Assembly: GCA_903952205.1 (NCBI GenBank)
Contig: CAJBEZ010000012.1
Coordinates: 1-64,000, forward strand
DNA: 64,000 nt
Source: an uncultured Desulfomonile sp.
GTDB taxonomy: Bacteria > Desulfobacterota > Desulfomonilia > Desulfomonilales > Desulfomonilaceae
Direction: 5' to 3'
Shown here in pieces: positions 10,508-61,805 of this stretch. Below the pieces are notes generated by a model. The model worked only from the letters and a program-made list of their open reading frames with translations. It did no database searches and was not told the origin of the DNA. The translations under genes were made by a program, and so were the position numbers. The first letter of the stretch is position 1. Each line of letters opens with the position of its first letter.

Positions 10508-11530
10508 CTACTCCGAGTCACAAGAGCAAATTATTACCATTCTATCAATCTTTTCCGAAACCTGCTTAACAATCAAGTCTGGTTTTATAAGTTTCGCCTG
10601 ATCCCCAAACGAAAGGATCCACGAAATTATTTCCGGTTCACTGGAAGCGGTGAACTTGATCCTAACCTTTTCACCGTCACGAGTTATGATCTGATCGTTG
10701 CTCCAAACTCGTTCTTCAACGTAAATAGCCGCCCATCCCGTGAATTCAGCCTCGACTTCAAACTTTTCGTCTTTAATGATTCCAAAAGTCTGATTGAACG
10801 CCTTCTGGAAGTCGTATTCCTTCGGAACCTCAAAATGGGCCTTGGTTTCATCGATTTCCACCTTCCTGAATCTGTGAATGGCTAACACCGGATCAAATTC
10901 GGGCTCAACATATTTTGTCTGCCAGGGATCTTTCGCCCTGAGCGCATGGAGATACAGGGCGTCCTTGTAAGAAAAGATCTTGAGAGGCTTGATATAAAAG
11001 GTCTTTGAACGTTCATTATATGGTGACTTGTATGTGACCTTGCAGACGTGCTTGTCGTTCATGGCTTTGATAAGAGCGCTGATGGTTTCCTGATGCGGGG
11101 TGTAGTCTATGGTGCCGGGATAGAAACAGGCAAAATTGGCGTCACAAATACTGGTCTGGTATTTTAAGAGCGCCCGGCTCTTGTCCAGGGCGTCTCTTGC
11201 CTCCTGGAAGAGCTGTTTTCCGAGGAGCCGCTCCGTAAACGCCCGGCACATCCACAAAAGATTCATTTCCGAAGGCGCCAGATAGGCGGCGGCAGGGGGT
11301 TTACGGCTCTTGATAACGTATACAGCCTCCCTTCCCCTCATCATCTTTTCTATTTCGACCTGATATGATGATTCGATGTCCCGGACAATACGCGCAATCG
11401 TCTGTTTGGAACAGTCCAGCATATTCGCCAGTTCAGTAAGACTATGCGGCCGTCCAGCGAACAGCAGGCTCGCAAAAAGCCTTATCACCTTCTCCCCGTA
11501 ACTCTTGTCCATGTCACGTTTTCTAGGCAT
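10508..11530 (-). CDS. WYL-domain transcriptional regulator
   Basis: The 340-residue product has an N-terminal winged HTH (SLTELANMLDCSKQTIARIVRDIE, about 32-60), a central WYL domain (about 150-230; KVTYKSPYNERSKTFYIKPL then ALYLHALRAKDP) and a C-terminal WCX extension. WYL proteins such as BrxR, DriD and PafBC regulate defence or DNA-damage genes and sense nucleic-acid-type ligands. It heads a minus-strand run of nuclease genes and once stood divergent from the AAA ATPase gene now at 13.4 kb: a broken copy of its 5' end lies immediately upstream of that gene, with the same palindromic element 137 bp from the start codon. It is the best candidate for the protein that binds that element. Confidence 0.88.
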   Translation of the reverse strand: MPRKRDMDKSYGEKVIRLFASLLFAGRPHSLTELANMLDCSKQTIARIVRDIESSYQVEIEKMMRGREAVYVIKSRKPPAAAYLAPSEMNLLWMCRAFTERLLGKQLFQEARDALDKSRALLKYQTSICDANFACFYPGTIDYTPHQETISALIKAMNDKHVCKVTYKSPYNERSKTFYIKPLKIFSYKDALYLHALRAKDPWQTKYVEPEFDPVLAIHRFRKVEIDETKAHFEVPKEYDFQKAFNQTFGIIKDEKFEVEAEFTGWAAIYVEERVWSNDQIITRDGEKVRIKFTASSEPEIISWILSFGDQAKLIKPDLIVKQVSEKIDRMVIICSCDSE

Positions 11531-11666: not shown

Positions 11667-11684
11667 ATCGTCTTATGGAACGAT
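11667..11684 (+). promoter_or_regulatory. Palindromic element copy 1 (partly decayed promoter)
   Basis: ATCGTCTTATGGAACGAT, an imperfect palindrome with ATCGT/ACGAT arms. It lies 137 bp upstream of the WYL start codon, exactly the spacing of copy 2 from the broken WYL start at 13143. The following TATAACTATTGCA seen in other copies has decayed here to ATGATAGTG, as expected if this copy was cut off from its gene by the insertion of the nucleotidyltransferase pair. Confidence 0.7.
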
Positions 11685-13279: not shown

Positions 13280-13317
13280 ATCGTCTTATGGAACGATCAG
13301 TAAATATAACTATTGCA
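13280..13317 (+). promoter_or_regulatory. Palindromic element copy 2 with TATAACTATTGCA box, promoter of first AAA gene
   Basis: ATCGTCTTATGGAACGAT (13280-13297) then TATAACTATTGCA (13305-13317). The core ends 68 bp before the AAA start codon at 13365, matching the 69 bp of copy 5 in front of the paralogous ATPase. The second box is a plausible -10 region. I infer an operator-promoter. Confidence 0.72.
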
Positions 13318-13364
13318 GGGCAGGACAACGTGTCCCCGAATGAGCCGGAATGAAGGAGACTAAA

Positions 13365-15596
13365 ATGGGACGACATGGTCGTAGACGCGCCGAAAATTCC
13401 TTCGGTTTTCCCCTGATAACGGTTTCTGATAATTCGGAGGCTTTTCTCAGAAGCAGGCTTATGACCTACATGCAAAGAGTTATGAATCAGAATCCGGAGC
13501 TTGACGAGGACATCTTTGAAGCCCTGTACTGGATGCTAGGCCGAGAATCCTGTTTGGATTATCTCAATTCCATTGCAAAGCTGGTTACTGATCGGGAATG
13601 TCCAAACCAGGATGAATTTGAAACGGCGGTAGAATCAAAAGAATCTTTCGCTGAAAGATGCACGAATATTCTCCGTTCAATCCCAAAAAAAGACAGACGC
13701 TTTGCCGAATCAGCCGCAAGAACATCATTGGACAAGCGGTTACAGGACATCCCATACGATGGGACTTCGAACTTTGAGCAAAATGTGCAGGAATTCAGGA
13801 GGATCTTTAACCTTGATGACAAGGAAACTGAACTGTGCATTTTCCTGTTCACACTTGACACACTAGAGTATCTCACAGGCCATTTCTTTTCGACTGAACT
13901 CGACTGTCGATCATATTTAGGCAGAAAATGGCTGGCCGTGACAATTGATTGCCCGGTTTCAGACCTGATTAAGGTGATCAACGGCAAGTTAAGGAAAATT
14001 GGAATTGTTATGATGCTACCTGATGAGGAGTTGCACCTTGATGACAGCATGGTGAGACTGCTGACTGACCCGGTTCCAGACCTGTTCCAAACAGAATTTT
14101 TTCGAAAAGTCAAACCCGATGCTATCCCTCTTGACTCACACATTGTCGACAAAAGATCCACCCAATTTATTCTCGACCTACTTGCTCGCAAGCCGCAGAC
14201 ATCTACTCATGTCCTGATTTATGGGCCGCCGGGAACTGGCAAGACAAGCTATGCTTATGGACTTGCCCAAAAAATGGGGTTGACTGTCTACCTTATGGAA
14301 CATGGCGGCAAGGAGGACCATGTTTCTCGGAGGGCAGCCGTAACCGCCTGTGTGAACGTGGCCAGCGGATCTGACGGATCGCTGATAATTACGGATGACG
14401 CGGACGCCGTTCTTAACACCAAAGATTCCTGGACGCACTCCGGTGAAACGCCGGACAAGCCGTGGTTGCACGAAATACTCGATAAGCCTGGGGTCAGGAT
14501 GATTTGGACAGTCAATTCCGTGGCCGACATTGAGGAATCAGTCGCCCGTCGATTTTCTTTCAGCCTTGAGTTCAAGCCGTTCAACAAGAAACAACGCATT
14601 CGGGTCTGGCAAAACATAGTGCGAACCCACAATGTGAAGCGTTTCTTAAGGGACCCCGAGATAGAAGATCTTGCGACCCGTTTCAACACAAGCGCCGGAG
14701 TAATAGAGCAGGTAGTTCGAAAGGTCTCCGAGTTAAGGGGGCGTTCCCAGCTAAATTTCAAGTCCTCTGTCGTGCTGGCCATGGAATCTCATGTCGGCCT
14801 TCAGAAGGGAGGGCACAGTCCAGAGAACGCAAATAGAACTGAAACCGACTTTACGCTGGACGGACTTAATCTTTCCGGGACTGATCCTCATTTGTTCATG
14901 GAAGAGATGAGGGCATTCAATGAATTCTCCAAAAAACCAAATACAAATAGTTCGGTTTCCATGTCGCTGTTGTTCCATGGGCCTGCGGGAACCGGCAAGA
15001 GCGCATTGGCGAGATTCGTAGCGTCTAATCTCGAGAAGGAAATTGTGTTGAAAAGGGCAAGCGATCTGTTCGCCAAGTATGTCGGTGAAACTGAGCAGAA
15101 CATCCGAAATGCTTATCAAGAAGCGCACTCAATGGAGGCGGTGCTAATTTTCGATGAGGCTGATTCACTGGTATTCAGCAGAGACAGGGCTGATCATTCA
15201 TGGGAATTGAGTTTTACGAATGAGTTCTTGACATGGATGGAGTCCTTCGAGGGCATCCAGATTTTCACCACGAACAGGCTGAGGGACATGGATAGCGCCA
15301 GTCTAAGGAGATTCAATCATAAGGTTGAATTCGGATACCTGAAGCCTGACGGCAATGTGATCTTCTATGAAAAGTTGATAGCGCCCCTGATCAATAAATC
15401 GGCCGGCGCTTTCACAGTTAAAGCGCTTAAAGGTTTATCTGGGCTTGCTCCCGGAGATTTTAAGTCTGTCAGGGACAGGTTCGCGTTCAGGAACAAACAA
15501 GATATTACGCATGAGGCACTGATAGCAGCGTTAGCTGATGAAGCGAGGGTCAAGGCGCTTCACGCAGGGCAAACCAGAATAGGTTTCGTGCCCTGA
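13365..15596 (+). CDS. Double-AAA ATPase (paralogue 1)
   Basis: The 743-residue product has a helical N-domain (about 1-250) and two AAA modules. Module 1: GPPGTGKTS near 287, SLIITDDADAV near 340 and MIWTVNSVADIEESVARRFSF (sensor 1 and Arg finger). Module 2: GPAGTGKSALA near 539, LIFDEADS near 594 and IFTTNRLRDMDSASLRRF. The layout is like Cdc48/SpoVK-type unfoldases or remodelling ATPases. ATG at 13365 is chosen over the in-frame ATG at 13350 because AAGGAG sits six bases before it. A second copy starts at 22651 with about 70% identity. The Walker B of module 1 is DDAD instead of DEAD, so that module may bind more than hydrolyse ATP. Confidence 0.85.
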   Translation: MGRHGRRRAENSFGFPLITVSDNSEAFLRSRLMTYMQRVMNQNPELDEDIFEALYWMLGRESCLDYLNSIAKLVTDRECPNQDEFETAVESKESFAERCTNILRSIPKKDRRFAESAARTSLDKRLQDIPYDGTSNFEQNVQEFRRIFNLDDKETELCIFLFTLDTLEYLTGHFFSTELDCRSYLGRKWLAVTIDCPVSDLIKVINGKLRKIGIVMMLPDEELHLDDSMVRLLTDPVPDLFQTEFFRKVKPDAIPLDSHIVDKRSTQFILDLLARKPQTSTHVLIYGPPGTGKTSYAYGLAQKMGLTVYLMEHGGKEDHVSRRAAVTACVNVASGSDGSLIITDDADAVLNTKDSWTHSGETPDKPWLHEILDKPGVRMIWTVNSVADIEESVARRFSFSLEFKPFNKKQRIRVWQNIVRTHNVKRFLRDPEIEDLATRFNTSAGVIEQVVRKVSELRGRSQLNFKSSVVLAMESHVGLQKGGHSPENANRTETDFTLDGLNLSGTDPHLFMEEMRAFNEFSKKPNTNSSVSMSLLFHGPAGTGKSALARFVASNLEKEIVLKRASDLFAKYVGETEQNIRNAYQEAHSMEAVLIFDEADSLVFSRDRADHSWELSFTNEFLTWMESFEGIQIFTTNRLRDMDSASLRRFNHKVEFGYLKPDGNVIFYEKLIAPLINKSAGAFTVKALKGLSGLAPGDFKSVRDRFAFRNKQDITHEALIAALADEARVKALHAGQTRIGFVP

Positions 15597-15664: not shown

Positions 15665-15919
15665 ATGAAAAAGGTCGTATTGATTATAACAGCGCTCTTA
15701 AGCCTTGGGATGTTAGCCCAGGCGGGATCGCCAACTGTCCGAAGTCAAATTCGCAACCCTTCAGGGAAGCTTTTATACAATACCAGTACAACAGGCAACA
15801 CGACCGAAGTACGGAACCCGAGCGGCAAACTCATTATTAAATCGAAAACAACCGGGAATAAAACCGAGGTCCGGTCGCCGACGGGCAAGCTTCTGGAGAC
15901 CATAAAAACCACAAAATAG
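15665..15919 (+). CDS. Secreted protein with three 20-residue YD-like repeats
   Basis: Signal peptide MKKVVLIITALLSLGMLAQA is followed by three units beginning RNPSGKLLYNT, RNPSGKLIIKS and RSPTGKLLETI, each about 20 residues with a Thr-Gly-Asn turn between. The h-x-N/D-x-x-G-x-L spacing resembles YD/RHS repeats, which form beta strips. A good ribosome site (TGGAGG) lies before the ATG. It follows the AAA gene by 68 bp and probably shares its transcript. Periplasmic or surface location is inferred; function unknown. Confidence 0.68.
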   Translation: MKKVVLIITALLSLGMLAQAGSPTVRSQIRNPSGKLLYNTSTTGNTTEVRNPSGKLIIKSKTTGNKTEVRSPTGKLLETIKTTK

Positions 15920-15955: not shown

Positions 15956-16276
15956 ATGAAAACTCTACTTGCTGCAATTCTTCAGATTCTGGTGTCGATT
16001 GCGTTACTTTTCGTGGGCACTCTGATCGCCGGTTTCTTCCTTGTCATATTCCTGATCTGGGGCTGGCCATTGACCATATTGCTGGTAATTGTCGCTGGTC
16101 AGAAAATCTATTTTCCTCCTGAAGTCAGACGAAACATCGCAGACAGGTTCAATCGTCCATGCATGTGTGCGCCAGACCCCAGATTCAGGGCGATGCAGAT
16201 CCAGGAATTACCTCATGAACCGGCTGATGGCGACTTGCGTGAAAGTGATGAGCGAATCCCGACGCTCCTGCATTAG
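15956..16276 (+). CDS. Small membrane protein, two predicted helices
   Basis: The 106-residue product starts with a long hydrophobic segment (about 5-30) and a second one (about 33-52) separated by a short turn, followed by a cytoplasmic-type hydrophilic tail with PCMCAPDPRFRAMQIQEL. It lies 36 bp after the YD gene and 45 bp before the next gene, in what looks like one transcript from copy 2 of the palindromic element. I do not recognise the family. Confidence 0.55.
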   Translation: MKTLLAAILQILVSIALLFVGTLIAGFFLVIFLIWGWPLTILLVIVAGQKIYFPPEVRRNIADRFNRPCMCAPDPRFRAMQIQELPHEPADGDLRESDERIPTLLH

Positions 16277-16321: not shown

Positions 16322-16975
16322 ATGACACCAAAATGGCTTAGGAACTTTTCAAATTCTCTTGGTTTGATGGCCCCGAGCATTCAGATCAGCCAAGAATATG
16401 GCAGGTTGATTCAAATGGGGGACTATGGGCGTTACACTGATAGTGATGTTGAGATAAGCTGCTATGAGAATGTCCATTGCTTTGTGGAAAAGGGTATGGG
16501 GTCCCATTGCGACGAAATTGGGAAAGTTCTCCGACTAATAGACTGTTTTCTGACCGATGTAAAAAGAGGAATGTATCGTTTCGATATGTATTTGTTCGGA
16601 AGTATTGAAGAACATAGAGAGGATAACCGTTTGTGGCGATTTCTTTATCAATATGGGAAATCCATGGAACGCTATAACAATTTGCCGGCTTGGGCCAAAC
16701 ATATTTGCGACAGGGCTGGGACAGAGGTCTGTTCAGAAGGAGCCTATTTCCCCACTTGTTCCCAAGTCGGTCACGAGGACCTCGCCATAGTCTTTACAAC
16801 TTCTCAAGTCAAGGTAAACGAAAAATCAAAGCATAGCTACAAAAGCAATAAACGTCATTTTTTCTGGTTTCTTCTGGACGAACCGGAACTTAAATTTGTT
16901 CACGGACTTCGCTTTGAACCAGATTTTATTAATGTTGAACCGCAGGGAACGGACGATGAGCTTAGACCATTTTGA
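16322..16975 (+). CDS. Unknown protein, possibly a degenerate VWA (von Willebrand A) fold
   Basis: The 217-residue product has a pattern reminiscent of bacterial VWA-like domains: NVHCFVEKGMGSHCDEI (position of the usual DxSxS metal site, here ExGxGS), LRLIDCFLTDVKRG, FDMYLFGSIEE (second strand), EDLAIVFTTSQVKV (strand where T-D-G is usual) and HFFWFLLDEPEL. The resemblance is by eye and the metal-site residues are altered. It would fit the common pairing of AAA ATPases with VWA proteins (MoxR-VWA, RavA-ViaA). It is co-directional with the AAA gene. If not VWA, it is an orphan. Confidence 0.4.
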   Translation: MTPKWLRNFSNSLGLMAPSIQISQEYGRLIQMGDYGRYTDSDVEISCYENVHCFVEKGMGSHCDEIGKVLRLIDCFLTDVKRGMYRFDMYLFGSIEEHREDNRLWRFLYQYGKSMERYNNLPAWAKHICDRAGTEVCSEGAYFPTCSQVGHEDLAIVFTTSQVKVNEKSKHSYKSNKRHFFWFLLDEPELKFVHGLRFEPDFINVEPQGTDDELRPF

Positions 16976-18053: not shown

Positions 18054-20417
18054 ATGCCTTACAGCGACTTTGTTCACTTGCATCTTCACACTCAGTATTC
18101 GCTCGGCGATGGCGCAATTCGAATTCCCGAAGCGATAGCCAAGGCTAAGGATTACAAAATGCCCGCTTTGGCCATTACGGATCATGGCAATCTATTTGGG
18201 GCCATGGAATTCTATTCCACTGCGGCGGCGAGCGGGATCAAACCAATCATAGGATGTGAGGTCTATGTAGCGCCAGGCTCGCGTTTCACGCAACCCACCA
18301 AACATGTTGAGCCACATTCCCATCATCTCATTCTATTCTGCGAGAACGGGAAGGGTTACCGCAATTTGTGCAGGTTGGTCACCAAAGGATACCAGGAAGG
18401 CTTGTATGAAAACAAACCCAGAATTGACACCGAACTGTTGCAGGAATACAACCACGGACTTGTATGTTTGAGTTCATGTTTAAAGGGCGAGATCGCAACA
18501 CTCATTCTGGCGGATGACGACAAAGGGGCCGAGGCGAAGGCTTCATGGTATCGAGACGTCTTCGATGACGGGAGATACTTCCTGGAAATTCAGGAAAACA
18601 GACTTGATGAGCAGCGCAAAGTCAATCGAAGCGTTCTCAATTTAGCTGGAAGGCTCAACATCCCGCTTGTGGCGACCAATAACTGCCACTATCTCGAACA
18701 ATCGGGACATCGTATCCACGACATTCTGATGCGCATTCAGGCGGGGAAGAAAATCAATGATCCCAGCCTCAGATTTCATTCGGACCAGCTTTATTTCAAA
18801 TCTCCTGAACAGATGGCCCATGACTTTCGTGATGTTCCTGACGCCATAAGAAATACCATGGCGGTTTCAGAACGATGCTCTCTCATACTCGAATCCGGTG
18901 AACCGAGCATTCCCAGGTTCAATCCAGGAACGGGCGCAACGTTGGATGAACTTCTTGACAAGGACGCACGGGCGGGCTTGGTGACCCGATTAAATAAACT
19001 TCTGCGAGGCGGGCATATTGATGATGTTGCCGCTCAGAAATACAGGCAACGACTGGATAATGAGATACACACCATACAAGACATGGGATTTTCAGGATAC
19101 TTTCTCATCGTTGCTGATTTTGTCAGATTCGCCCGAAGTAACGGAATCCCGGTAGGACCTGGCAGGGGATCGACTCCAGGCTCAGTTGCAGCCTACTGTC
19201 TAGGGATCACCGCCATTGACCCTATTCGGCACAATCTCGTGTTCGAAAGATTTATCAACCCGGAGCGCAGGGTCATGCCGAACATGGACGTGGATTTCTG
19301 CGCCGAAGGCCGCAAACGAGTTATTGATTATGTTTCTCAAAAATACGACAATGACAGCGTAGCTCAAATCATCGCATTCTGGCAAATGCCGGCAAAAACA
19401 CTTGTAAAAAACACTGCCCGAGCGCTGGGGTTCCCTCATGCTCAGGGAGACGAGATTGCTAACCTGATCCCCGATTACTTGATGGTCACAATTGATTCAG
19501 CCATAGAGGAAGAACCCAGGCTACGAGACATGGCGCAAAGATCCACGGAAGTCGCCAACCTGATCAGTACGGCACGCTCATTGGAACGGATCACTCGCCA
19601 CGTTTCCACACAATCTGATGCAATAGTCATATCCGACAGGCCACTAGTGCAGCGTCTACCTCTTTGCGTGGGAAACAACGGCCAGACTTTAACCCAGTAC
19701 GACCAAACTTGGGTCAATAAAATAGGATTAGTAACTTTCGGTTTTCGCGGACTTGAGATCCTCACCGTGATAGATAAGGCGGTGCGGCTCATCGAAAAAT
19801 CTCGGGGAGTGAAACTTGATATGGCGTCTGTTCCATTGGATGATCAGGAGTCATTCGAACTCCTTTCCAGGGGAGACACACAGGGGATATTCCAGCTTGC
19901 GTCTCCCGGCATACGGGAAGCGCTTGCCAGGTTCAAGCCGTCCACGTTCGAGGACCTGACTGCAATAATGTCGCTGTATCGGCCGGGTCCACTCGAATCC
20001 GGTATGGCGGAGGATCTAATTAACCGCAAACACGGACTCACAGCCATAGAATATCCATTCCCAGAGTTGGAACCCGTCTTGAGGGAAACCTATGGACTTA
20101 TCATCTACGAGGAACAGGTTATGGGAATAGCGACCGCTGTGGCAGGGTATACACTTTCGGAAGCCGATCTGTTGCGTCGGGCTATGGTAAAGAGGATAGA
20201 TTCCGAAATGGCGGAACAAAAAAGCCGTTTTGTGAAGGGAGCCGGATTGAATAACATTGATCCGGCAAAAGCGGCGGACATATTCGAACGCGTGACAAAT
20301 TACAGTGGTTATGCTTTTAGCAAAGCTCATTCAACTGCCTACGCTATGATCACCTACCAGACCGCATACCTTAAAACTCATTACAAACATGAATTCATGA
20401 CTGCCCATTTGAGCTGA
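18054..20417 (+). CDS. Truncated, probably inactive DnaE-like DNA polymerase III alpha paralogue
   Basis: The 787-residue product keeps the PHP domain (HLHLHTQYSLGDG at 8-20, ITDHGNLFG near 43), the GPGRGSTPGS palm entry near 366 and the first two palm aspartates (MDVDFC, D412 and D414). The third catalytic Asp, in the usual KFDFLGL or KMDFLGL motif, is Gly563 in VTFGFRGL. The usual HAAGVVI is SDAIVI and the conserved TFG is AFW. In the PHP domain the usual NDVHY is NNCHY. The chain ends at KHEFMTAHLS, where DnaE continues for ~370 residues with fingers end, HhH, OB and tau-binding parts. So polymerase activity is unlikely; PHP or structural function remains possible. AAGGAG lies 5 bases before the ATG. 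Confidence 0.86.
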   Translation: MPYSDFVHLHLHTQYSLGDGAIRIPEAIAKAKDYKMPALAITDHGNLFGAMEFYSTAAASGIKPIIGCEVYVAPGSRFTQPTKHVEPHSHHLILFCENGKGYRNLCRLVTKGYQEGLYENKPRIDTELLQEYNHGLVCLSSCLKGEIATLILADDDKGAEAKASWYRDVFDDGRYFLEIQENRLDEQRKVNRSVLNLAGRLNIPLVATNNCHYLEQSGHRIHDILMRIQAGKKINDPSLRFHSDQLYFKSPEQMAHDFRDVPDAIRNTMAVSERCSLILESGEPSIPRFNPGTGATLDELLDKDARAGLVTRLNKLLRGGHIDDVAAQKYRQRLDNEIHTIQDMGFSGYFLIVADFVRFARSNGIPVGPGRGSTPGSVAAYCLGITAIDPIRHNLVFERFINPERRVMPNMDVDFCAEGRKRVIDYVSQKYDNDSVAQIIAFWQMPAKTLVKNTARALGFPHAQGDEIANLIPDYLMVTIDSAIEEEPRLRDMAQRSTEVANLISTARSLERITRHVSTQSDAIVISDRPLVQRLPLCVGNNGQTLTQYDQTWVNKIGLVTFGFRGLEILTVIDKAVRLIEKSRGVKLDMASVPLDDQESFELLSRGDTQGIFQLASPGIREALARFKPSTFEDLTAIMSLYRPGPLESGMAEDLINRKHGLTAIEYPFPELEPVLRETYGLIIYEEQVMGIATAVAGYTLSEADLLRRAMVKRIDSEMAEQKSRFVKGAGLNNIDPAKAADIFERVTNYSGYAFSKAHSTAYAMITYQTAYLKTHYKHEFMTAHLS

Positions 20418-20574: not shown

Positions 20575-20612
20575 ATCGTCTTATGGAACGACGAAGCAAT
20601 ATGAGTATTGCA
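20575..20612 (+). promoter_or_regulatory. Palindromic element copy 3
   Basis: ATCGTCTTATGGAACGAC (20575-20592), followed by AATATGAGTATTGCA, a variant of the second box. It stands 131 bp before the start codon at 20723, close to the 118 bp of copy 6 before the paralogous gene at 26682. Confidence 0.7.
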
Positions 20613-20722: not shown

Positions 20723-21184
20723 ATGTCAAAAAAGAGAAAGAAGAAATTGATAGAATTTTCAAACTTTGATGAAGAGCGATACTCGCGCTGGACCCTGGCC
20801 ATTGACGAAACAGTTCGCGATTTAGAACCTTACCTGAAGAAGCTTAGCTTTCATGTTAAGCCATTTTACGGTGAACAATACCCTCCCGAGCTAGACGAAT
20901 TACTATTAGCAGCCAAAGTAGATTTCTTTATTACTACGAGAGGGAAAGCTTTCGAGAGGTATGTATATAGATATCTCGAGAGTCAATACCATATCTTGTG
21001 GGTCAGTGAGCATTTGCTGGATGACCCTTCGAGGGCCGCCAGAACTATTGAAGGCGCAATATTGTATGACCCGAGATTACAGCATAGCAGTTGGCTCAGT
21101 CGGTGGTGTGTAATCATAGGTGGCGCATACGTAACTGAACTGCCTAAACTCAAGAAAGAGTGGCTGCGTAAGAAAAGGAAATGA
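20723..21184 (+). CDS. Small protein, possible PIN/DUF5615-like domain (paralogue 1)
   Basis: The 153-residue product starts MSKKRKKKLIEF, chosen because the paralogue at 26682 begins at the same residue and an AAGG lies just before it. The stretch FYGEQYPPELDELLLAAKVDFFITTRG, then YHILWVSEHLLDD, resembles the start and DxDF strand of DUF5615 PIN-like proteins, with the acidic residues partly lost; this is tentative. A basic tail (KKEWLRKKRK) suggests nucleic-acid binding. It is preceded by palindromic element copy 3. Confidence 0.55.
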   Translation: MSKKRKKKLIEFSNFDEERYSRWTLAIDETVRDLEPYLKKLSFHVKPFYGEQYPPELDELLLAAKVDFFITTRGKAFERYVYRYLESQYHILWVSEHLLDDPSRAARTIEGAILYDPRLQHSSWLSRWCVIIGGAYVTELPKLKKEWLRKKRK

Positions 21185-21714: not shown

Positions 21715-21752
21715 ATCGTCCTATGGAACGAAACATGTTTATAACTATTGCA
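21715..21752 (+). promoter_or_regulatory. Palindromic element copy 4 with TATAACTATTGCA box
   Basis: ATCGTCCTATGGAACGAA (21715-21732), then TATAACTATTGCA (21740-21752), the best-preserved second box outside copies 2 and 5. No coding frame follows before the terminator at 21833-21868, so the transcript would be a short non-coding RNA unless it reads through to the gene at 21943. Confidence 0.7.
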
Positions 21753-21942: not shown

Positions 21943-22500
21943 ATGAACAAGCATCTTAGAAGACTCATTTACAAACACAGAGCGGCTAAAGGGCTTAACT
22001 TCGGTCAACTCGCCGAGTTATCGGGTTACAGGAACAGGTCCAAGTGGGCGATCAGAATCTGCACTCTCGAGAGGGAAGGCGTAGGAACAGGCGAACTGGT
22101 CGGTAACGTGATCCGGGCTTTGGAAATTGACCATCAAGAGGTTCAGGAAGCCCTTCAGAAAGATTACGCGATTTGGGAGCAATGGGCTAACGAGCCCGTT
22201 CCAATGCAAATGCTTATAAGAATCACCGGCGTCATTATCTTAATCCACGATATGCCACCGGAGATCACTTCACGGGAAACGGCCATAGAGTATGCCCAGG
22301 AATACGCTAAGGAAAATGGTCTCCGAGTAGTTCTCGTTCTTTCGCGACGAGAATCGGCATGGATCACTGCGGATGGCAACATGAGCATGTCGCAAACAAA
22401 ACCAGGCGTGCCAAATATTCCGTATGCCAGTGTGGGTGGAAAGAAATTTCTTTTCGGCGGTAGCGAGGAATCACTAACACTCTCTGTATTAAAGGATTGA
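21943..22500 (+). CDS. HTH-like N-terminal protein of unknown function
   Basis: The 185-residue product has a GGAGG ribosome site. The first ~70 residues look like an XRE/Cro-type helix-turn-helix (LNFGQLAELSGYRNRSKW, then VIRALEIDHQEV), longer in the turn than usual. The C-terminal part (RITGVIILIHDMPPEI, VVLVLSRRESAWITADG) is an alpha/beta segment with no motif I recognise. It sits between the candidate small RNA and the second ATPase gene, so a regulatory role in the duplicated system is possible. Confidence 0.5.
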   Translation: MNKHLRRLIYKHRAAKGLNFGQLAELSGYRNRSKWAIRICTLEREGVGTGELVGNVIRALEIDHQEVQEALQKDYAIWEQWANEPVPMQMLIRITGVIILIHDMPPEITSRETAIEYAQEYAKENGLRVVLVLSRRESAWITADGNMSMSQTKPGVPNIPYASVGGKKFLFGGSEESLTLSVLKD

Positions 22501-22650: not shown

Positions 22651-24876
22651 ATGGAACTCATGAATGCTAACCGCCCTGTTAAGCCATTAACTGTTTCGCA
22701 GGTCGAAGTTACCGATAATTCACTGGCATTCCTTCAGAAAAAGACGCTGACGTATATTGACCGATTACTAATGACTAACCGTAATCTCGACAAGGAAATT
22801 TTTGAGATCATCTACTGGCTGCTAAATCGTGATTTGGCGAATGATTATTTCGAGACGATCAAAAAGCTAATCCCCAAAGAAAAAGAACAGAAAGACGATG
22901 AAACGGATGGCTCCATTGAAGAATCGTGGGAATTCGCTCATAGATCCTTCGACATAATTAAGTTGCTCCCGCAGGAATCGAGACATCAGGCGCGAATGAC
23001 CATCAGAAGATTATTTAGACTGCGGATAGACGAACTGAGCTACGATGGAGCAACAACCATTGAGCAGAATATCCAGGAATTTCAAAAAATGTTCAGTCTT
23101 GATGACACTGAAACAGAATTGTGTCTGTTCCTGTTCATTCTGGCCAACTGGAACGAATTCCAGATGTTTTTCGAGAACCATCTCCAGTGCAACCGTTATC
23201 AGGGGAGAAGATGGCTCGCCATAGTTTTAAATTGCAGAGAAGCCCAATTAGTAAAGGCCCTCAATGGAAAACTCTATCAAATTGGAATCCTGGATAAGGA
23301 TAATTATAGAAGTGGTTTCGAATTGAAGCAGGTGTTCGGGCAAAAGTTACAGGATCTTAGTCCCGGCGAGTTTAAGACCCAGTTCACCCAAAGGGTCAAA
23401 TGTGATCCGATCCCTCTTGACGCCCACATGATAGACAAAAGGATAACTAAAAACATTCTAAACAAGCTTTCTTACAAACCTGAGACATCAACGCATGTTT
23501 TATTATACGGGCCTCCTGGAACCGGAAAGACAAGCTATGCACATGGCATTGCGGAAAAACTGGGGTTATCCTGTTACCAATTAGATCATGGGGGGAAAGA
23601 CAGCACGTTTTCGCGTCGAGCCGCCATAACGGCTTCAGTCAACATGGTAAGCGAATCTAATAGATCGTTGCTGATAGCTGATGACTGTGATTCTGTCCTG
23701 AACACCAGAAGCGCATGGAGCTTCTTCGGCGAAACACCGGACAAACCCTGGCTCCACGAAATATTAGAAAAGCCGGGAGTCAGGATGATCTGGACTGTGA
23801 ATTCTGTGGACAACATAGAGGAGTCAGTCGCTCGCAGGTTTTCTTTCAGCGTCAATTTCAAACCATTCAACAGACAACAACGTGTTCAGCTCTGGCAGAA
23901 CATCGTTCGAAAACACAAGGTCAAGCGTTTCCTGAAAAACTCGGAAATTGAAGAACTGTCGAACCGATTTGAAGTGAGCGCCGGTGTAATAGACCAGGCA
24001 ATCCGTAAGGTTGCTGAATCAAAAAATCACTGTGACGAGGATTTAAAAGAATCGATAGTATTAACGCTGGAATCACACACCAGTCTTAGTGAAGGCGGGC
24101 ATAGCCCGGTGAAGGGAAAATCTGATCACAGTAATTTTACGTTGAATGGCCTCAATCTTTCAGGGGCAGATACTCATGTTTTGCTTGAAGAATTGACAGC
24201 ATTCAACGAATTCTCGAAAAAACCCAACCCGCATGGTCCGGTTTCCATGTCTCTACTGTTCCACGGACCTCCGGGAACCGGTAAGAGCGCACTGGCGAGA
24301 TTCATAGCGAATCATCTCGATAAGGAAATTGTATTCAAAAGGGCGAGTGACTTGTTCTCAAAGTGGGTCGGCGAAACTGAACAAAACATCCGAAGCGCTT
24401 ATGAGGAGGCTCAGACAAAGGAAGCGGTGCTGATATTCGACGAGGCTGATTCTCTAGTTTTTAGCAGAGATCGGGCTGAGCATTCGTGGGAATTGAGTTT
24501 TACGAATGAGTTTCTGACGTGGATGGAATCTTTCCAAGGCATCCAGATATTTACCACTAACAGGTTGAAGGATATGGATGCCGCAAGTTTGAGGAGGTTC
24601 AATCACAAGGTGGAGTTTGGATACCTTAAGCCTGACGGCAATGTGATCTTTTATGAAAAACTGATAGCGCCGCTGATCGATAAATCGGCCGACGCTTGCG
24701 CAATTAAAGCGCTTGAAGGTTTGTCGGGGCTTGCGCCGGGGGATTTCAAGTCTGTCAGGGACAGATTCGCTTTCAGAAATAAAAAGGATATTACGCATAA
24801 GGCGCTGGTAGAGGCGTTGGCTGATGAGGCGAGGGTCAAGGCGATTCATGCAGGGCAAAAAAGTATAGGTTTTTGA
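22651..24876 (+). CDS. Double-AAA ATPase (paralogue 2)
   Basis: The 741-residue product is the paralogue of the ATPase at 13365, with the same N-domain and two AAA modules: GPPGTGKTS near 287 with SLLIADDCDSV, and GPPGTGKSALA near 537 with LIFDEADSLVF. The last 250 residues are nearly identical to paralogue 1 (GYLKPDGNVIFYEKLIAPLI), the N-domain much less so, suggesting a divergent partner or substrate. Module 1 Walker B is again unusual (DDCD). The start is the ATG with AAAGGAG six bases before it. It is followed by a YD-repeat gene, as is paralogue 1. Confidence 0.85.
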   Translation: MELMNANRPVKPLTVSQVEVTDNSLAFLQKKTLTYIDRLLMTNRNLDKEIFEIIYWLLNRDLANDYFETIKKLIPKEKEQKDDETDGSIEESWEFAHRSFDIIKLLPQESRHQARMTIRRLFRLRIDELSYDGATTIEQNIQEFQKMFSLDDTETELCLFLFILANWNEFQMFFENHLQCNRYQGRRWLAIVLNCREAQLVKALNGKLYQIGILDKDNYRSGFELKQVFGQKLQDLSPGEFKTQFTQRVKCDPIPLDAHMIDKRITKNILNKLSYKPETSTHVLLYGPPGTGKTSYAHGIAEKLGLSCYQLDHGGKDSTFSRRAAITASVNMVSESNRSLLIADDCDSVLNTRSAWSFFGETPDKPWLHEILEKPGVRMIWTVNSVDNIEESVARRFSFSVNFKPFNRQQRVQLWQNIVRKHKVKRFLKNSEIEELSNRFEVSAGVIDQAIRKVAESKNHCDEDLKESIVLTLESHTSLSEGGHSPVKGKSDHSNFTLNGLNLSGADTHVLLEELTAFNEFSKKPNPHGPVSMSLLFHGPPGTGKSALARFIANHLDKEIVFKRASDLFSKWVGETEQNIRSAYEEAQTKEAVLIFDEADSLVFSRDRAEHSWELSFTNEFLTWMESFQGIQIFTTNRLKDMDAASLRRFNHKVEFGYLKPDGNVIFYEKLIAPLIDKSADACAIKALEGLSGLAPGDFKSVRDRFAFRNKKDITHKALVEALADEARVKAIHAGQKSIGF

Positions 24877-24907: not shown

Positions 24908-24997
24908 ATGCGTATTTATTGGAGGGCGAGAGGAATTCTGAAAGCTCTCGCTGAAGATCTTGATCATGGGTTTATCGAAGTAAAGGAGAGAACATGA
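24908..24997 (+). pseudogene. Short frame, remnant of the 4594-type helical gene, overlapping the YD gene
   Basis: ATG to TGA encodes 29 residues, MRIYWRARGILKALAEDLDH and on, matching GILEALMEDLDFGMI near the end of the gene at 4594. The rest of that gene is gone. Its TGA overlaps the ATG of the following YD-repeat gene (ATGA), so it could still act as a translated leader. Confidence 0.5.
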
Positions 24998-25476
24998 AAA
25001 AGTTAGCGTTATTTATAATCGTTGCGTTGCTAATATGTGCCACTGGTAACGTTTACTGCGGTTCTTCGGAAAAAAGAGGACATCCAAGATGTATCCCTCA
25101 AGGACCAGTGACAATATACGACAACCGTGGACAACTCCAACAAACCATAAGAAGGGACTCATCGGGGAATGAGAAAGTCTACGACAATCGTGGTCAACTC
25201 CAACAGACTATTAAAAGGGATTCGTCGGGGCATGAGAAAGTTTACGATAACCGCGGTCAACTCCAACAAACTATTAAAAGAGATTCATCCGGGAATCAGA
25301 AAGTGTATGACAGTCGTGGGCAACTTCAACAGACTATAAAAAGAGATTCGGCTGGTCATCAGAACATCTATGATAACCGTGGCCAACTCCAACAAACGAT
25401 CAAAAGGGAATCATCGGGGAATGAGAAAGTTTACGATAATCATGGACAACTCCAAGAATCTATCAAGTTGCGCTAA
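24994..25476 (+). CDS. Secreted protein with six 21-residue YD-like repeats
   Basis: The signal peptide (MKKLALFIIVALLICATG) is followed by a short Cys-containing linker and six near-perfect copies of a 21-residue unit with core YDNRGQLQQTIKRDSSGNEK. The YD-x-x-G-x-L spacing and the Gly turn are those of YD/RHS repeats, which build beta strips in polymorphic toxins and surface filaments. The repeats are nearly identical also at DNA level, so copy number could vary by slippage. It is the second member of the AAA plus YD arrangement. Function unknown; the N-terminal Cys in the linker could allow lipidation or a disulfide. Confidence 0.75.
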   Translation: MKKLALFIIVALLICATGNVYCGSSEKRGHPRCIPQGPVTIYDNRGQLQQTIRRDSSGNEKVYDNRGQLQQTIKRDSSGHEKVYDNRGQLQQTIKRDSSGNQKVYDSRGQLQQTIKRDSAGHQNIYDNRGQLQQTIKRESSGNEKVYDNHGQLQESIKLR

Positions 25477-25481: not shown

Positions 25482-25559
25482 CGGTTTTGAGAAGGGAGCC
25501 GCATTGAATAACATTGATCCGGCAATAACGGCTCAAATATTCGAACACGCGACAAGTTC
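25482..25559 (+). pseudogene. DnaE-like gene fragment
   Basis: About 75 bp repeat positions 20228-20303 of the DnaE-like gene with ~83% identity, reading GFEKGAALNNIDPAITAQIF against RFVKGAGLNNIDPAKAADIF. The rest of the gene is missing. It lies just after the YD gene of the second module, the place equivalent to the DnaE-like gene in the first module. Confidence 0.8.
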
Positions 25560-26546: not shown

Positions 26547-26591
26547 ATCGTCCTATGGAACGATAGAGATCTATACTTGCGTATAGTCTCT
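26547..26591 (+). promoter_or_regulatory. Palindromic element copy 6 followed by a perfect hairpin
   Basis: ATCGTCCTATGGAACGAT (26547-26564), then AGAGA, T, CTATAC, loop TTGC, GTATAG, TCTCT (26565-26591), a hairpin in which every base but one pairs. The TATAACTATTGCA box of other copies is replaced by this repeat (CTATACTTGCG). It lies 118 bp before the start codon at 26682. Confidence 0.65.
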
Positions 26592-26681: not shown

Positions 26682-27131
26682 ATGTCCAAAAAACGAAAGA
26701 GAAAATTGACAGAATTTACGAATTTTTCTGAAGAGCGGTATTTGAAATGGAAACTGGGGGTAGACCTGACTACTAAAGATCTGAAAGCCCCCCTGGAAAA
26801 GCTCAGTTTCTATGTCTTGGGCTTTTTCGGAGAGCAGTATGCGGCAGAACTTCGTGAGTCGCTAATTGAAGCGAAAATCGATTTCTTCATTACTACTAGA
26901 GAAAGAATTTATTGGAAACATTATTGTAATTTTTTGCAGAAGTATAACCTCTTGTTGATTAGAGAGCATTTACTGGATGATCTACCCAGGACCGCAAAAG
27001 CCATAGAAGACTCAATATTGTACGACCCGACTTTCAAAAGTTGGGGAGGTTCGTCCCAAGTTCTTGACGGCCAGTATATAACTATGTTGCCTAGATTGAA
27101 AAAATGGTGGCAGAGTAAGCGCACCAAATAA
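26682..27131 (+). CDS. Small protein, possible PIN/DUF5615-like domain (paralogue 2)
   Basis: The 149-residue product is the paralogue of that at 20723: MSKKRKRKLTEFTNFSEERY, FFGEQYAAELRESLIEAKID, FFITTRERIYW and REHLLDDLPRTAKAIEDSIL align without gaps. The tail ends in a basic KKWWQSKRTK. Upstream is palindromic element copy 6 and a GAGAGG ribosome site. Function unknown, tentatively PIN-like; conservation of a pair under the same regulatory element suggests that both matter. Confidence 0.58.
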   Translation: MSKKRKRKLTEFTNFSEERYLKWKLGVDLTTKDLKAPLEKLSFYVLGFFGEQYAAELRESLIEAKIDFFITTRERIYWKHYCNFLQKYNLLLIREHLLDDLPRTAKAIEDSILYDPTFKSWGGSSQVLDGQYITMLPRLKKWWQSKRTK

Positions 27132-27318: not shown

Positions 27319-30051
27319 ATGAAAATAATTCTCGGTCAGGAGTTGGATACAGGCAGTTACCCTGACGCTCTTGGGGATGAAGAAGCCACAATGGGGAATG
27401 TGGTTGTTGGACCCTCAGGATTGATCGGAATTTTAGAGACCCGACTGGGATTGTCAAAGGCTAGACCGCACGAAGCTGTCCGCATCGGCCATTACCTCAA
27501 GATCCTGAGAGAAATTGACGGAGGTAAACGTTTTTATTCCAAGTCATTCGAAGCTGACGCATGGTCAACATCCAAGACGATACTGAAGTGGAGGGATGAA
27601 CTGAAGGTAGCCGGATGGAATGGAGACCTCCCGCCCGGGGGTAGTATCCGACTTCAAACCCTTAGTGACATGGAGAAACTCTTCCAGAACGAGCTTATTG
27701 AGGGCTTAGGTGATCGTCTACAATCCATTCTTTCAATATTAAATTGTCGCGAGAAAACGGACCTAGAGCACGTACTGCTTGTTGAGCCGCTCGCGGAATG
27801 GGCCTCCGGCTGGCGAAAACTAATAGAATTGTTAAACAAATGTGGCGTCAAGATTGCGAGTGTTTCCACTAACGTTGAGCCCGGTCCAGGGGATCTTGGG
27901 CGACTTCAGGAAGCGCTTAGAAACGGGAGCCCGTTTAATGGCAATGTCGGCGGCGACGGAAGCCTATGCGTTGTAAGAAGTCCCGGCGAATGGGAATCAT
28001 GTGAGACTATCGCATCTTTCCTGGAAGCCATCCACAGGAACGACGAGAAGACACTCATTATTGATGAAGGCGGCAGTAATTTGCTGGATGATACCCTCAA
28101 TCGACACAACCTCCCCCGATTAGGATACGATTCCAGGTCTCCCTGGCGGACGGCGCTTCAATTATTGCCACTAACTCTCGGAAACCGCTGGAAACCGCTA
28201 GACGCTCAAAAGCTGCTTGAGTTTCTGATCATTCCGAAATCACCCATAACTCGGGATGTTGGCGTATTTCTGGAAAAAGCGCTGCGTGAACATCCTGGAA
28301 TTGGCGGTCCTAAATGGAATGAAGCGATGGAGCAGGCATTCAAACAGTATGAGAGCTATTCCTTTGACAGAGAGATGGAACCCGAGACGCCTGAAAGTCT
28401 GGAGGATTTTCGTGAAGAATTGAGTTTCTGGCTTGGGGAGAACGAACGGTTCAGTCCAGATGATGGCATTTCATCCGGTGTTGTCATAGAGATCTGTTCC
28501 CGTCTCAATAAATGGGCGGCAAAGCGAGGCGGACTCGACAAGGACGAGACGCTGATCGCTTCAGCCAAACTTTTCAACGATGTAGCTCAGGCTATTCAGG
28601 ATTCAGGGTTAAAAACAATCTCACAGCCGCAATTGAATCGGATTCTTGATTCGGTAACAGGCGAAGGTCTCGAAAAACCCAACTATGGCCCGCAAGCGGG
28701 GCCGTGGTCTGTGGTTAAGTCTCCAGGCCAGGTTTGGGGAATGGCTGACACAATCATCTGGTGGAACTTCACTTCAGATGGAGTTTCCCCGCTCCACTTG
28801 CCCTGGACGTCCAGTGAAAGAGAAACACTAAAATCCGCAGGCGTGGAACTGAGAGAAACCCATGAAATTCGTCTGCAGCAATCGAGATCCTGGAGGAACG
28901 CCGCATTATTTGCGGGTAAACGCCTGGCGCTTGTGGCTCCCCTGTCATTTGCGGGCGAAACGGTTAACTTTCATCCTTTCTGGGATGAAATACATCATCT
29001 ATTGAACCTCAACGAAACCTCGATTAACAAGCTGACTTTCGATGGGACACGAATGTGGCGGGAGGCGAGTCCAAAGTTTAGTGGATTGGAGCTAGTCCGT
29101 GAGCCGATGTCGAGCATGGAGACCCCAAAAACCGACAATATCTGGCTGGTTCCGCCAAACCGGCTCAAGGGCCGGATTGAGGAATCCTATTCCAGTATGC
29201 AACAGCTATTAGAATGTCCGCTCGCCTGGGTCTGCCAGTATGTTTTGCAACTTCATCCCGGAACGTTAGCTCTTTTGCCGGACAGAGGGGAAATGCTGGG
29301 AACACTCAGTCATGCGGTTATAGAAAAGACTTTATGCGCCAAACCACTGCCGGACCCACAATCAGCCGAAAGACTCGCATTATGCTATTTTGATGAACTT
29401 GTCCCCCAGATGGCTTCTTCTCTGCTATTCCCGGAGCGAAAGTCCGAACTCGAGCGAGTCCGAGGCCTGATAGGGACTGGCGCCAGGATTCTCGTTGAAC
29501 ACATACAATCATCAGGACTCAGTGTCAGGAGCATCGAAGGTTCAGTCCGGAAGGAACTCAACAGTGACCAGCAAATGACAGGACGAGTAGACATGGCGCT
29601 TGGAGATGACACGGGAGATAGAGTAGTTGTTGATCTAAAATGGTCCACTCGGGCTCGTTACAAGAGAGAAGAACTGGAGGAAGGGAAGGCCTTTCAGTTG
29701 GCGGTTTACGCCTGGCTCTTACAGAACCGGGATAACGAGTTTCCCGCAGGAGCTTATTACATGCTTGCGCAGGGCGAACTTGTCGCCTCATCGTGTAATT
29801 TCTTCTCATCCGAGTGTGTCTTCCCCGACGTAAATCTCGAGAACATGTGGGACCAGGGTATGGAATCCTACAAGTTCCGAATTAACGAGCTTCAAAATGG
29901 CAAAGCGATGGCGTCGGGCGTTACCATAAACAGCCCTGCTCCGCAAAATGAGGACTCGTCGGAAAAAGATCCATCAGAACCATCAGTTGATTCGAAGCCA
30001 AAATGCGAATGGTGTCCTTACTCCAATCTGTGTGGAATGGGGGTCAGCTAG
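27319..30051 (+). CDS. AddB-like nuclease subunit, Fe-S PD-(D/E)XK protein
   Basis: The 910-residue product matches the AddB type of recombinational repair nuclease-helicase. The C-terminal third has the iron-sulfur nuclease: CPLAWVC (about 632-638) and CEWCPYSNLC (about 895-904) for the cluster, with GRVDMAL (Asp near 756), VVDLKW (Asp-x-Lys near 772) and QLAVYAWLL as the nuclease core. The N-terminal two-thirds has degenerate helicase features. The subunit pairs with an AddA-type helicase-nuclease immediately downstream, which starts two bases after this gene ends. The pair resects double-strand breaks and degrades foreign linear DNA. Confidence 0.82.
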   Translation: MKIILGQELDTGSYPDALGDEEATMGNVVVGPSGLIGILETRLGLSKARPHEAVRIGHYLKILREIDGGKRFYSKSFEADAWSTSKTILKWRDELKVAGWNGDLPPGGSIRLQTLSDMEKLFQNELIEGLGDRLQSILSILNCREKTDLEHVLLVEPLAEWASGWRKLIELLNKCGVKIASVSTNVEPGPGDLGRLQEALRNGSPFNGNVGGDGSLCVVRSPGEWESCETIASFLEAIHRNDEKTLIIDEGGSNLLDDTLNRHNLPRLGYDSRSPWRTALQLLPLTLGNRWKPLDAQKLLEFLIIPKSPITRDVGVFLEKALREHPGIGGPKWNEAMEQAFKQYESYSFDREMEPETPESLEDFREELSFWLGENERFSPDDGISSGVVIEICSRLNKWAAKRGGLDKDETLIASAKLFNDVAQAIQDSGLKTISQPQLNRILDSVTGEGLEKPNYGPQAGPWSVVKSPGQVWGMADTIIWWNFTSDGVSPLHLPWTSSERETLKSAGVELRETHEIRLQQSRSWRNAALFAGKRLALVAPLSFAGETVNFHPFWDEIHHLLNLNETSINKLTFDGTRMWREASPKFSGLELVREPMSSMETPKTDNIWLVPPNRLKGRIEESYSSMQQLLECPLAWVCQYVLQLHPGTLALLPDRGEMLGTLSHAVIEKTLCAKPLPDPQSAERLALCYFDELVPQMASSLLFPERKSELERVRGLIGTGARILVEHIQSSGLSVRSIEGSVRKELNSDQQMTGRVDMALGDDTGDRVVVDLKWSTRARYKREELEEGKAFQLAVYAWLLQNRDNEFPAGAYYMLAQGELVASSCNFFSSECVFPDVNLENMWDQGMESYKFRINELQNGKAMASGVTINSPAPQNEDSSEKDPSEPSVDSKPKCEWCPYSNLCGMGVS

Positions 30052-30052
30052 T

Positions 30053-33000
30053 ATGCAAACATCATTACCAATAGAAATAATAAGCGCCAGCGCAGGATCG
30101 GGAAAGACATACACACTGTCCAAGACCTTGGTCGAGGCGCTCAGAAATGGCGTTCGACCAGAGGCTGTCCTTGCGACCACATTTACCAATAAAGCTGCGG
30201 CGGAACTGGTTGAAAGAGTGAGAGCGGACCTGTTCAAAGATCAGAAATGGGAATATGCGCAGCGGATTTTTGATGGTCATCTAGGCACGGTGAATTCGGT
30301 TTGCGGGAGGCTACTAAAAGAGTTTGCTTTCGAACTCGGGCTTTCGCCTGTACAGGACGTACTCCCTGAAGAGGACAACTTTTTTATCTTTGAGCGGGCG
30401 ATTGCCCCGGTTTCGGAGAAATATTCCCAGGAGATCGACGCCATAGCGAACCGGTTCGAGATAAAGGACTGGCGCGACATTCTCAAAGATATCATTAATA
30501 AAGTCAGAACAAATGACATTGCCCCCGATAGTCTTTCAAAATCATACGAATGGTCATGGAAAACCTTTCAGGATATTTTACCTGCAACCTCAAAAAGCAA
30601 GGAGGATCTGCTTGATAAGGATCTTGCCGATGCAATTTCCGAGACCTATGAGTCACTGAAAGAGAATCGAGCCGACTCTACCGTGGCTACTAAAGGGGTC
30701 ATAAAGAAGCTCGGAAATCACCTTCGAAGCAGGACTGAGACCAGTTCTATGCCCTGGCCAGATTGGGCCAGATTTTCAAAACTCTCGCCCGGCGCCAAGA
30801 GCAGAGACCTATGTGAACGGTTGACCAACGCCGCAAAGATTCATACAAGTCATCCCCGATTACAGAGAGATATTCAGACTTTTGTCCGGCTGCTTTTTGA
30901 GTGTGCAAGAGAGGCCGTGGTAGCATTTTCAGAGTTTAAGGAGAAAAATGGGATCGTCGATTTCGTGGATCAGGAAAAACTGGCGCTGGAACTCCTGAGA
31001 ATTCCTGAGGTTCAAGAACGACTCAAGGAGGATTTAAAAATCGTATTTGTTGACGAATTCCAGGATACCAGCCCGATACAGTTGGCTCTCTTCATACAGT
31101 TCGCAAGGCTGGCGTCCAAATCGGTCTGGGTTGGTGATCAAAAACAGGCGATTTATGGGTTCAGGGGCACGGACCCAACCTTGATGGATGCGGTGATAGA
31201 CCAGATCATCGATCCGAAACGCCTGCGGATACTATCCGGCTCATACCGTTCACGTCCCGGTTTAATAGCATTTACAAACAACCTTTTCGCTACAGCGTTC
31301 GAACCTCTGGGAATTCCACCGGATAGAGTCAGGCTTGAACCGAAGCTAGAGGATGGCCCTGGCCAGAAAACACCGCTTCTTGTCTGGAGATTATCGAGAA
31401 AAGACAGCACGATTGAGAAGGACAAGGCCTCGGATGACAAGGAGACACGGTCGCTCGCTGTGGCTGTGGGGAATCTGCTGGAGCAATGCGACGAATATAT
31501 GATCCTGGACAAAAACACCAAACAAACCCGTCCTTTGAGGCCTGCGGATATAGCGATACTATGTCGCCGGAATTCCAAATGCGAAAAGGTCGCCACTTTG
31601 CTTGAAGCCCACGGAATCCGGGCTTCGATTCCCCGAAGCGGTCTGATGTCGACACCTGAGTGCATTCTGGGATTTGCCGCTCTTCGCTATCTGGTTGACA
31701 AGAGCGATTCACTCGCTGTTGCCGAGATACTTCATTTTACCGAAAGTTCCTCGGTTACACCGAAATGGTTTACTGAACGGCTTGAAAATCTCGGCAACAA
31801 AATATGGAATTCCAGTCCGACCATGCAGGAACTGGACAGACTCAGGGGTGATCTTATCCATCTAACACCATCTGAAGCCCTTGAAACGGCCCTTAACGCA
31901 GTGAGAATCCATGAAGCGGCCCTTCGTTGGGGTAATACGGCGCAGAGGATCGCCAATCTGGAAATGCTCAAGGGACTGGCGCTAAATTACGAAGACCAAT
32001 GTTTGATCAGTCGTAGCGCTGGGACACCGGCGGGGCTGGTGACTTTCCTGAGTAAAAACGTTCGCGGCGAAGAGATTGATACTCAACCGGCGGGCCAGGA
32101 CGACAACGCCGTCAAAGTCTTGACTTACCATAGCGCCAAGGGACTGGAATGGCCTGTGGTTGTTATGTATGAACTCGACTGGCGCAGAGATGTTAGCCCA
32201 TTTGGAGCGTACGTTGAGTCAGAAAAAGAAGGCTTTGATCCAATGCAGCCTCTCGCTGGACGTAGAGTCCGATACTGGCCATGGCCATACGCTACACATA
32301 AAAGCGATGTAGGGATGGATGATTCGGTCCGTAAATCATCAGAGTATAAACAAGTGGCGTTGCAGGAGCGCAAGGAGTTAATGCGACTTCTTTACGTCGG
32401 AATGACAAGGGCGAGGGACTATCTGGCCTTTGCCGTCGGGGTTGACAAGGAAGGCAAGAATTCAGCCAGATGGCTAGAAATCCTTGAGGACAAAGAGAAT
32501 AAAAAAATCCTTAGTTTGCCACTGGATTTCGATAATCAAAATATTTCGGTCGGTGGCCAAAAATTCGCCGCAACATTGCAGAAGTTTGAACCGTTTCAGG
32601 AGAAGGTGGAAAACACCGGCGAGGCCACATATACAACGCCTGTCACACATAAGAATATGGAACATCCGAGATCCAGGTTAGTGCCCAGCCAACTCGGAAC
32701 AGACCTGGGCGACTCTGTCACCATTTGCGAAACCGTATCTTTAGGAGAGCGTATCCCGCTGGACGGCAATCCAGATATGGATCTCGTTGGCGAGGCCATA
32801 CACGGATTCCTGGCAGTTGATGATTACCTACTGGAGGATGTAAAGCGTATGGAGATGGCGGAGCAGACCCTTCTCAACTGGAGGGTCACAGCCATAAAAC
32901 CGGAAAATCTGGTAGAAGTGAGTAACAGACTGCGATCTCACATCGAAAAAACATACGGAAAAGATTGCATTTGGCGCAGCGAATGGCCCATTCATTTGAG

Positions 33001-46302: not shown

Positions 46303-46343
46303 GAGTCGGCTCTCCTTGTGACGTCAAACGTTAACGAATGTAA

Positions 46344-58900: not shown

Positions 58901-58922
58901 GTATTAATGAAATCCCTATTCC

Positions 58923-58947
58923 ATATATGTCCTTGTTTGACACGCAT
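58923..58947 (+). repeat. GTGTC-palindrome, copy E (degenerate)
   Basis: ATATATGTC, CTTGTTT, then GACACGCAT. The left arm has decayed. It lies 23 bases after the rmuC stop and 61 before the leader peptide at 59008, so it could end one transcript or control the next. Confidence 0.55.
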
Positions 58948-59007
58948 CCGAATTATCATGCGGGAAGCCCGCTGGTGTGCGCCCAGAAGGTGTATATGGA
59001 GGCTTCG

Positions 59008-61804: not shown

Positions 61805-61805
61805 G

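Follow-up and report, generated by a model that had tools for sequence, protein, structure and literature searches.

The catalytic aspartates of C-family DNA polymerases correspond to D401, D403, and D555 of Escherichia coli, the first two lying within the motif PDFDVDF (Timinskas et al., PMC3919608). A 2013 survey described this triad as absolutely conserved in the family, using a data set from which sequences without an intact active site had been removed (PMC3919608); the description of these residues as conserved is thus partly due to that removal. Active members have a core of PHP, Pol3, and (HhH)2 domains, with an OB domain nearly universal. Inactive polymerases are described for other families in a 2026 survey, which covers proteins of the Y and X families and in whose consulted passages no inactive C-family group was found (PMC12926913). 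A literature search on inactive or truncated DnaE returned nothing relevant.

Here we describe dnaEx, a DnaE-like gene in a 64,000-nucleotide stretch of DNA from an uncultured Desulfomonile sp. (hereafter, the window). The gene and the residues that define its state are the following.

18054..20417, + strand: dnaEx, a dead, truncated DnaE (PHP 8-181, palm/thumb 313-563, fingers 570-731; TGA end)
18681..18683, + strand: codon 210, Asn for a PHP metal-ligand Asp (D226 of Mtb DnaE1, by alignment to that protein)
19281..19283, + strand: codon 410, Asn for a catalytic Asp (E. coli D401, by alignment); Tyr in both relatives
19740..19742, + strand: codon 563, Gly for a catalytic Asp (E. coli D555, the Asp of KFDFLGL, by alignment)
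20415..20417, + strand: TGA stop of dnaEx, common to its three copies and aligned with TGT (Cys) in the closest live DnaE

The frame runs uninterrupted for 787 codons, encoding 787 aa, and is preceded by a conserved AAGGAG ribosome site. Domain searches detect the PHP, DNA_pol3_alpha, and finger domains in dnaEx, whereas HHH_6 and OB, both present in the host's own 1155-aa DnaE, are found in none of the three dnaEx copies. NCBIfam DnaE models, about 1150 residues long, align to residues 1-787 of dnaEx, up to about residue 780 (E 3e-302), and the protein stops ahead of the HhH, beta-binding, OB, and tau-binding regions. By its whole-length homology and its position inside the DnaE1 tree, dnaEx is a DnaE homolog by descent, but one without the complete core of active C-family enzymes. 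All three copies end TTGAGC TGA, where the closest live gene, from another genus (G015), reads TGT GAA TCT GGA AAC, and homology to that gene continues for about 20 nt past the stop. The alignment indicates that the stop arose by a TGT to TGA change and that the remainder of the gene was lost afterwards.

At the polymerase site, the catalytic triad reads N or Y, D, and G in the three copies. The preliminary description of this gene had recognized a DnaE-like frame that ends early, Gly in place of the KFDFLGL Asp, an altered HAAG motif, AFW in place of TFG, and the retention of most PHP ligands in a frame free of stops, and all of these points agree with our alignments and domain searches. Its reading of MDVDFC as keeping two catalytic aspartates was wrong. 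The catalytic pair is D401/D403, and D401 (the Asp of PDFD) is Asn410 in dnaEx; D414 corresponds to the non-catalytic D405, so that D412 (E. coli D403) is the sole catalytic Asp left of three. The states at position 410 would fit a D to Y change in the ancestor followed by Y to N in the window copy. In the window copy HAAG has become QSDA, TFG has become AFW, and the fingers motif FNKSH, conserved in DnaE, reads FSKAH; HAAG and TFG are altered in every copy. N210, G563, R565, and S521-D522-A523 are among the states common to all three. A set of 20 live DnaE proteins shows no variation at 246 positions; 25 of these positions are lost in all three copies, 15 of the 25 lying in the palm. Considering the window copy by itself, losses at family-invariant sites affect 20/62 positions in the palm versus 23/184 elsewhere (p=0.0008).

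The PHP domain retains eight of its nine metal ligands in all three copies, the exception being D210, which is Asn in each; all nine, including the D210 equivalent, are intact in the live DnaE proteins of the family that were compared. In Mtb DnaE1, D226N and D23N each abolish exonuclease activity, and the D226N protein still binds zinc (PMC5636811). Because D210N is the same change as Mtb D226N, the PHP domain of dnaEx is probably an inactive domain that holds zinc. As far as sequence allows, catalysis at both the polymerase and the PHP sites is excluded.

A search of the window's own genome with dnaEx returned the canonical dnaE (62% identity), a second truncated copy on another contig (90%), and a DnaE2-like gene (32%); the last is a separate polymerase gene (C88) and was rejected as a candidate. 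Among 60 relatives searched, a third intact copy of 787 aa and 74% identity was found in a genome of the same genus (G006; Deltaproteobacteria bacterium FK_Sedi_B_Bin.36, contig JAMCYH010000140.1), and a contig search of genomes gave this contig as its sole match. Intact dnaEx therefore exists as three copies in two genomes, with an identical end and shared losses, and this agreement between two independent genomes is not chance. None of the copies has a frameshift or a stop ahead of the last three codons; the second own copy carries an additional TAG three codons before the shared TGA. Degraded traces are also present, one being a broken remnant with the FSKAHS signature in another genus (G012) and the other lying within the window.

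25484..25558, + strand: remnant (75 nt) of a further dnaEx copy, matching codons 725-749 at 87% identity

These two remnants, together with the narrow distribution of the gene, indicate that dnaEx copies also get lost. Among the matches listed for 246 genomes of the phylum, the only truncated DnaE1 genes that are short away from a contig end are the two of the window's genome. Three queries against viral contigs found no relatives, and the best matches listed from plasmids and phages were all DnaE proteins below 43% identity. Short DnaE frames in G008 and other genomes are cut by contig ends. A match in G007:C175 (L037:7061-8311) was left aside as a distinct DnaE (44% identity) that runs off the contig end and has intact-looking motifs; this bin already holds one DnaE, and the contig is probably foreign contamination.

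In a maximum-likelihood tree, the three dnaEx sequences form one clade (100/100), which is sister to the DnaE of G015 (100/99) and stands apart from the DnaE of its own genus. In line with this placement, dnaEx is 70% identical to the G015 protein and 62% to the host's own DnaE, and its GC3 is 0.52-0.53, versus 0.47 in the own dnaE. The tree and GC3 rule out a recent duplicate of the own dnaE. Denoting the window copy W, the second own copy P, and the G006 copy T, the W-T dS is 0.67, whereas the dnaE comparison between these two genomes has reached saturation, which implies that dnaEx has passed between species. The tree, GC3, and dS values indicate capture of dnaEx from another lineage, followed by transfer between species. 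The two own copies (window and L035) are nearly identical at codons ~300-420 (window 18954-19314) and more diverged elsewhere, and this uneven divergence suggests gene conversion between them.

As the inactivating changes are shared, the differences among the copies arose after inactivation. The dN/dS is 0.27 for W-P (bootstrap 0.20-0.36), 0.22 for W-T (0.18-0.27), and 0.21 for P-T (0.17-0.26), with all intervals below 0.4. In neutral simulations of the 491 changes between the window and G006 copies, about 11.5 stops arose on average and 0 of 2000 runs were free of stops. The palm has the highest dN of any region in the dead set, while in live DnaE of the same genomes it is among the slowest. 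PHP has the lowest dN/dS in dnaEx (0.15-0.18), and PHP and fingers are both under tighter constraint than the palm. This pattern indicates that constraint has shifted from the catalytic centre to PHP and the fingers. A dN/dS near 1 and frame breaks, the marks of a decaying pseudogene, are both absent from the copies, and we hold with high confidence that dnaEx is dead and maintained. The preliminary description had supposed that selection holds a non-polymerase function, and the dN/dS values among orthologs after inactivation bear this out. It had also called for orthologs that share this Gly and stop at the same point, which the second own copy and the G006 copy provide, and had named uniqueness as the sign of a decaying gene; with three copies under selection, a unique decaying gene is ruled out as the main reading.

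Slow decay is a rival reading. A captured dnaE fragment could be a passenger hitchhiking in a mobile cluster, its destruction still ahead, and the broken G012 copy, the 75-nt window remnant, the premature TAG of the second own copy, and a palm dN/dS between the two own copies of up to 0.5 (interval 0.28-0.89) all point in that direction. We nevertheless consider such slow decay unlikely, given a post-inactivation dN/dS that is, overall, far below 1 for each pair, three copies without frameshift or earlier stop, the conserved ribosome site, and the tighter constraint on PHP and fingers.

The gene is embedded in a cluster with the following members and motif occurrences.

10508..11530, - strand: WYL-domain regulator, divergent from the cluster; a 96% identical copy lies beside the second cluster
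11667..11683, + strand: ATCGTCYTATGGAACGA, an operator-like motif, upstream of the WYL gene
13280..13296, + strand: ATCGTCYTATGGAACGA upstream of AAA1
13350..15596, + strand: AAA1, ATPase with two AAA domains
15665..15919, + strand: 84-aa protein with a signal-like N-terminus, conserved in every cluster that holds dnaEx
15956..16276, + strand: 106-aa protein with a hydrophobic N-terminal half
16322..16975, + strand: 217-aa protein, found in these clusters only
20575..20591, + strand: ATCGTCYTATGGAACGA downstream of dnaEx and upstream of p153
20723..21184, + strand: p153, 153 aa (ORF from 20660), predicted alpha/beta Rossmann-like
21715..21731, + strand: ATCGTCYTATGGAACGA upstream of the 185-aa gene
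21943..22500, + strand: 185-aa protein ahead of AAA2; the two are paired again in G006:C125
22565..22581, + strand: ATCGTCYTATGGAACGA upstream of AAA2
22681..24876, + strand: AAA2, second two-domain AAA ATPase (ORF from 22528)
24994..25476, + strand: 160-aa secreted-type protein with 63-nt (21-residue) tandem repeats
26547..26563, + strand: ATCGTCYTATGGAACGA upstream of the second p153 copy
26682..27131, + strand: second p153 copy
G000:C33, 152956 and 157847: ATCGTCYTATGGAACGA in the second cluster

The order in G006 (AAA, 84 aa, 106 aa, 217 aa, dnaEx, p153, AAA, repeat protein) is the same as in the window. The second own cluster (WYL, p153, 84, 106, 217, dnaEx, AAA) is arranged largely as in the window, and its 217-aa gene carries a stop. 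The Rossmann-like prediction for p153 has no significant structural match, and the protein has no clear relative. The repeat unit of the 160-aa protein is YDNRGQLQQTIKRDSSGxxK, and a relative of this protein is encoded in G006 (L036:8636-9118).

The motif ATCGTCYTATGGAACGA is partly palindromic (ATCGT...ACGAT), followed by a TATAAC-like box. All of its 8 occurrences in the 4.78-Mb genome lie inside the two clusters. In other genomes it is found between WYL and AAA genes (G002, G012) and upstream of AAA genes (G006); G025 and G039 likewise have WYL-AAA pairs. With this distribution, ATCGTCYTATGGAACGA probably serves a small regulon as operator or promoter, through which the WYL protein may regulate the cluster. 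The motif is absent directly upstream of dnaEx, whose transcription would have to start at the AAA1 promoter or at one of its own.

Defence-type genes surround the cluster in the window (Hma, UvrD/PD-(D/E)XK, NERD helicase, RhuM, and RmuC), and AAA modules of this kind elsewhere adjoin McrBC (G002) or an nSTAND/Mrr-type protein (G006). PADLOC reports no system in the cluster, with generic AAA matches only. From this genomic context, the cluster may have a role in defence.

Several loci of the window can be described in more detail. An Hma-type defence operon at 43495-52732 (- strand) comprises an HmaC ATPase, a DUF1156 protein, and an SNF2 helicase with a NO VEIN C-terminal domain. At 27319-33247, a PD-(D/E)XK nuclease gene overlaps a UvrD helicase with a nuclease domain (AddAB-like) and is followed by an M78 peptidase/HTH gene. 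Genes for RmuC, a NERD helicase, a WYL regulator, and an ARPP-1 protein, all defence-type, are consecutive at 57716-63981, and at 40403-41623 an ion-channel domain is fused to a pentapeptide-repeat protein.

Since both active sites are broken and selection preserves the gene all the same, dnaEx is most likely a binding protein or decoy rather than an enzyme. On balance we favor dnaEx as a horizontally spread, selected, non-catalytic pseudo-polymerase that would most likely work by binding, and with somewhat more assurance we assign it a part in what the cluster does. On this view it descends from the DnaE1 of another genus in the same family and retains the N-terminal two thirds of that protein, with the polymerase and PHP exonuclease sites disabled and everything beyond the fingers removed. 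The product would then spread with a WYL-regulated, AAA-ATPase-centred cluster in defence islands and display the PHP, thumb, and fingers surfaces of a replicative polymerase, either to lure an anti-polymerase factor of an invader, as decoy or bait, or to serve the AAA ATPases as a scaffold. That dnaEx is a decoy or bait is a conjecture we put forward tentatively. Its extension to a mobile defence system, in which the dead mimic baits an invader's anti-polymerase protein and so spares the live DnaE or triggers the AAA ATPases, is more doubtful. The preliminary description had offered three ideas, phosphoesterase, decoy, and primer-end binder, among which the decoy may fit best. The primer-end binder is weakened by the altered palm motifs and FSKAH and by the loss of (HhH)2 and OB.

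The kept PHP and thumb surfaces, the location within a defence island in a cluster that appears to be regulated, and the frequency with which phages have their own DnaE-type polymerase could also suit a replisome poison, an induced dead subunit that would compete with live DnaE and halt host or phage replication (abortive infection). However, without clamp- and tau-binding regions, entry of dnaEx into the holoenzyme is unlikely; the (HhH)2 and OB regions needed for such entry or for holding DNA are missing too, and conserved palm motifs are altered, which leaves poisoning distinctly unlikely. Least probable is an active PHP phosphoesterase or nuclease that has dropped polymerisation, as in some PolX proteins described with a dead polymerase and a live PHP (PMC12926913), because the Asn at D210, a residue kept by all compared live DnaE of the family, tells against it in every copy despite the low dN/dS of PHP and its eight ligands.

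A dead DnaE that is under purifying selection and moves between species, dnaEx would show that the C-family fold is reusable for binding alone. If the decoy reading is true, the host replicase should be a target for proteins of invaders, and the cluster would embody a new defence principle, a replisome-based guard or decoy strategy whose central element is a C-family polymerase that is catalytically dead yet under selection. Together with its operator-like motif, which is specific to such clusters, the WYL/AAA cluster is a compact candidate system.

In its gene context, the cluster resembles WYL-regulated defence islands of the BrxR type, where a WYL regulator stands beside defence genes and an operator-like sequence (PMC9122601), but it contains no BREX or other named system, its core being AAA ATPases and unknown proteins. 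AAA1 and AAA2 match IetA models of IetAS (AAA ATPase and subtilisin), a match that reflects the general AAA fold, and no subtilisin-like IetS or protease domain was found among the cluster ORFs scanned. As a protein, dnaEx is homologous to DnaE1 (DNA polymerase III alpha) across 787 residues, through PHP, palm, thumb, and fingers. It differs in lacking two of three catalytic aspartates, one PHP ligand, and the HhH, beta-binding, OB, and tau-binding regions, and in being an extra copy in a defence-like cluster. With PolX proteins that have a dead polymerase and a live PHP, it shares the loss of the polymerase site and the retention of the PHP fold (PMC12926913); those proteins belong to family X and have an active PHP, whereas the PHP of dnaEx carries an inactivating Asp-to-Asn change. 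ImuB and other inactive Y-family polymerases likewise keep a non-catalytic polymerase fold as a binding protein (PMC12926913). They represent another polymerase family, and the partners of ImuB are a RecA-like protein and DnaE2, whereas dnaEx has lost the clamp-binding region and stands in another gene context. We therefore rate dnaEx, as a pseudo-polymerase, as a known kind of protein that here appears in the C family.
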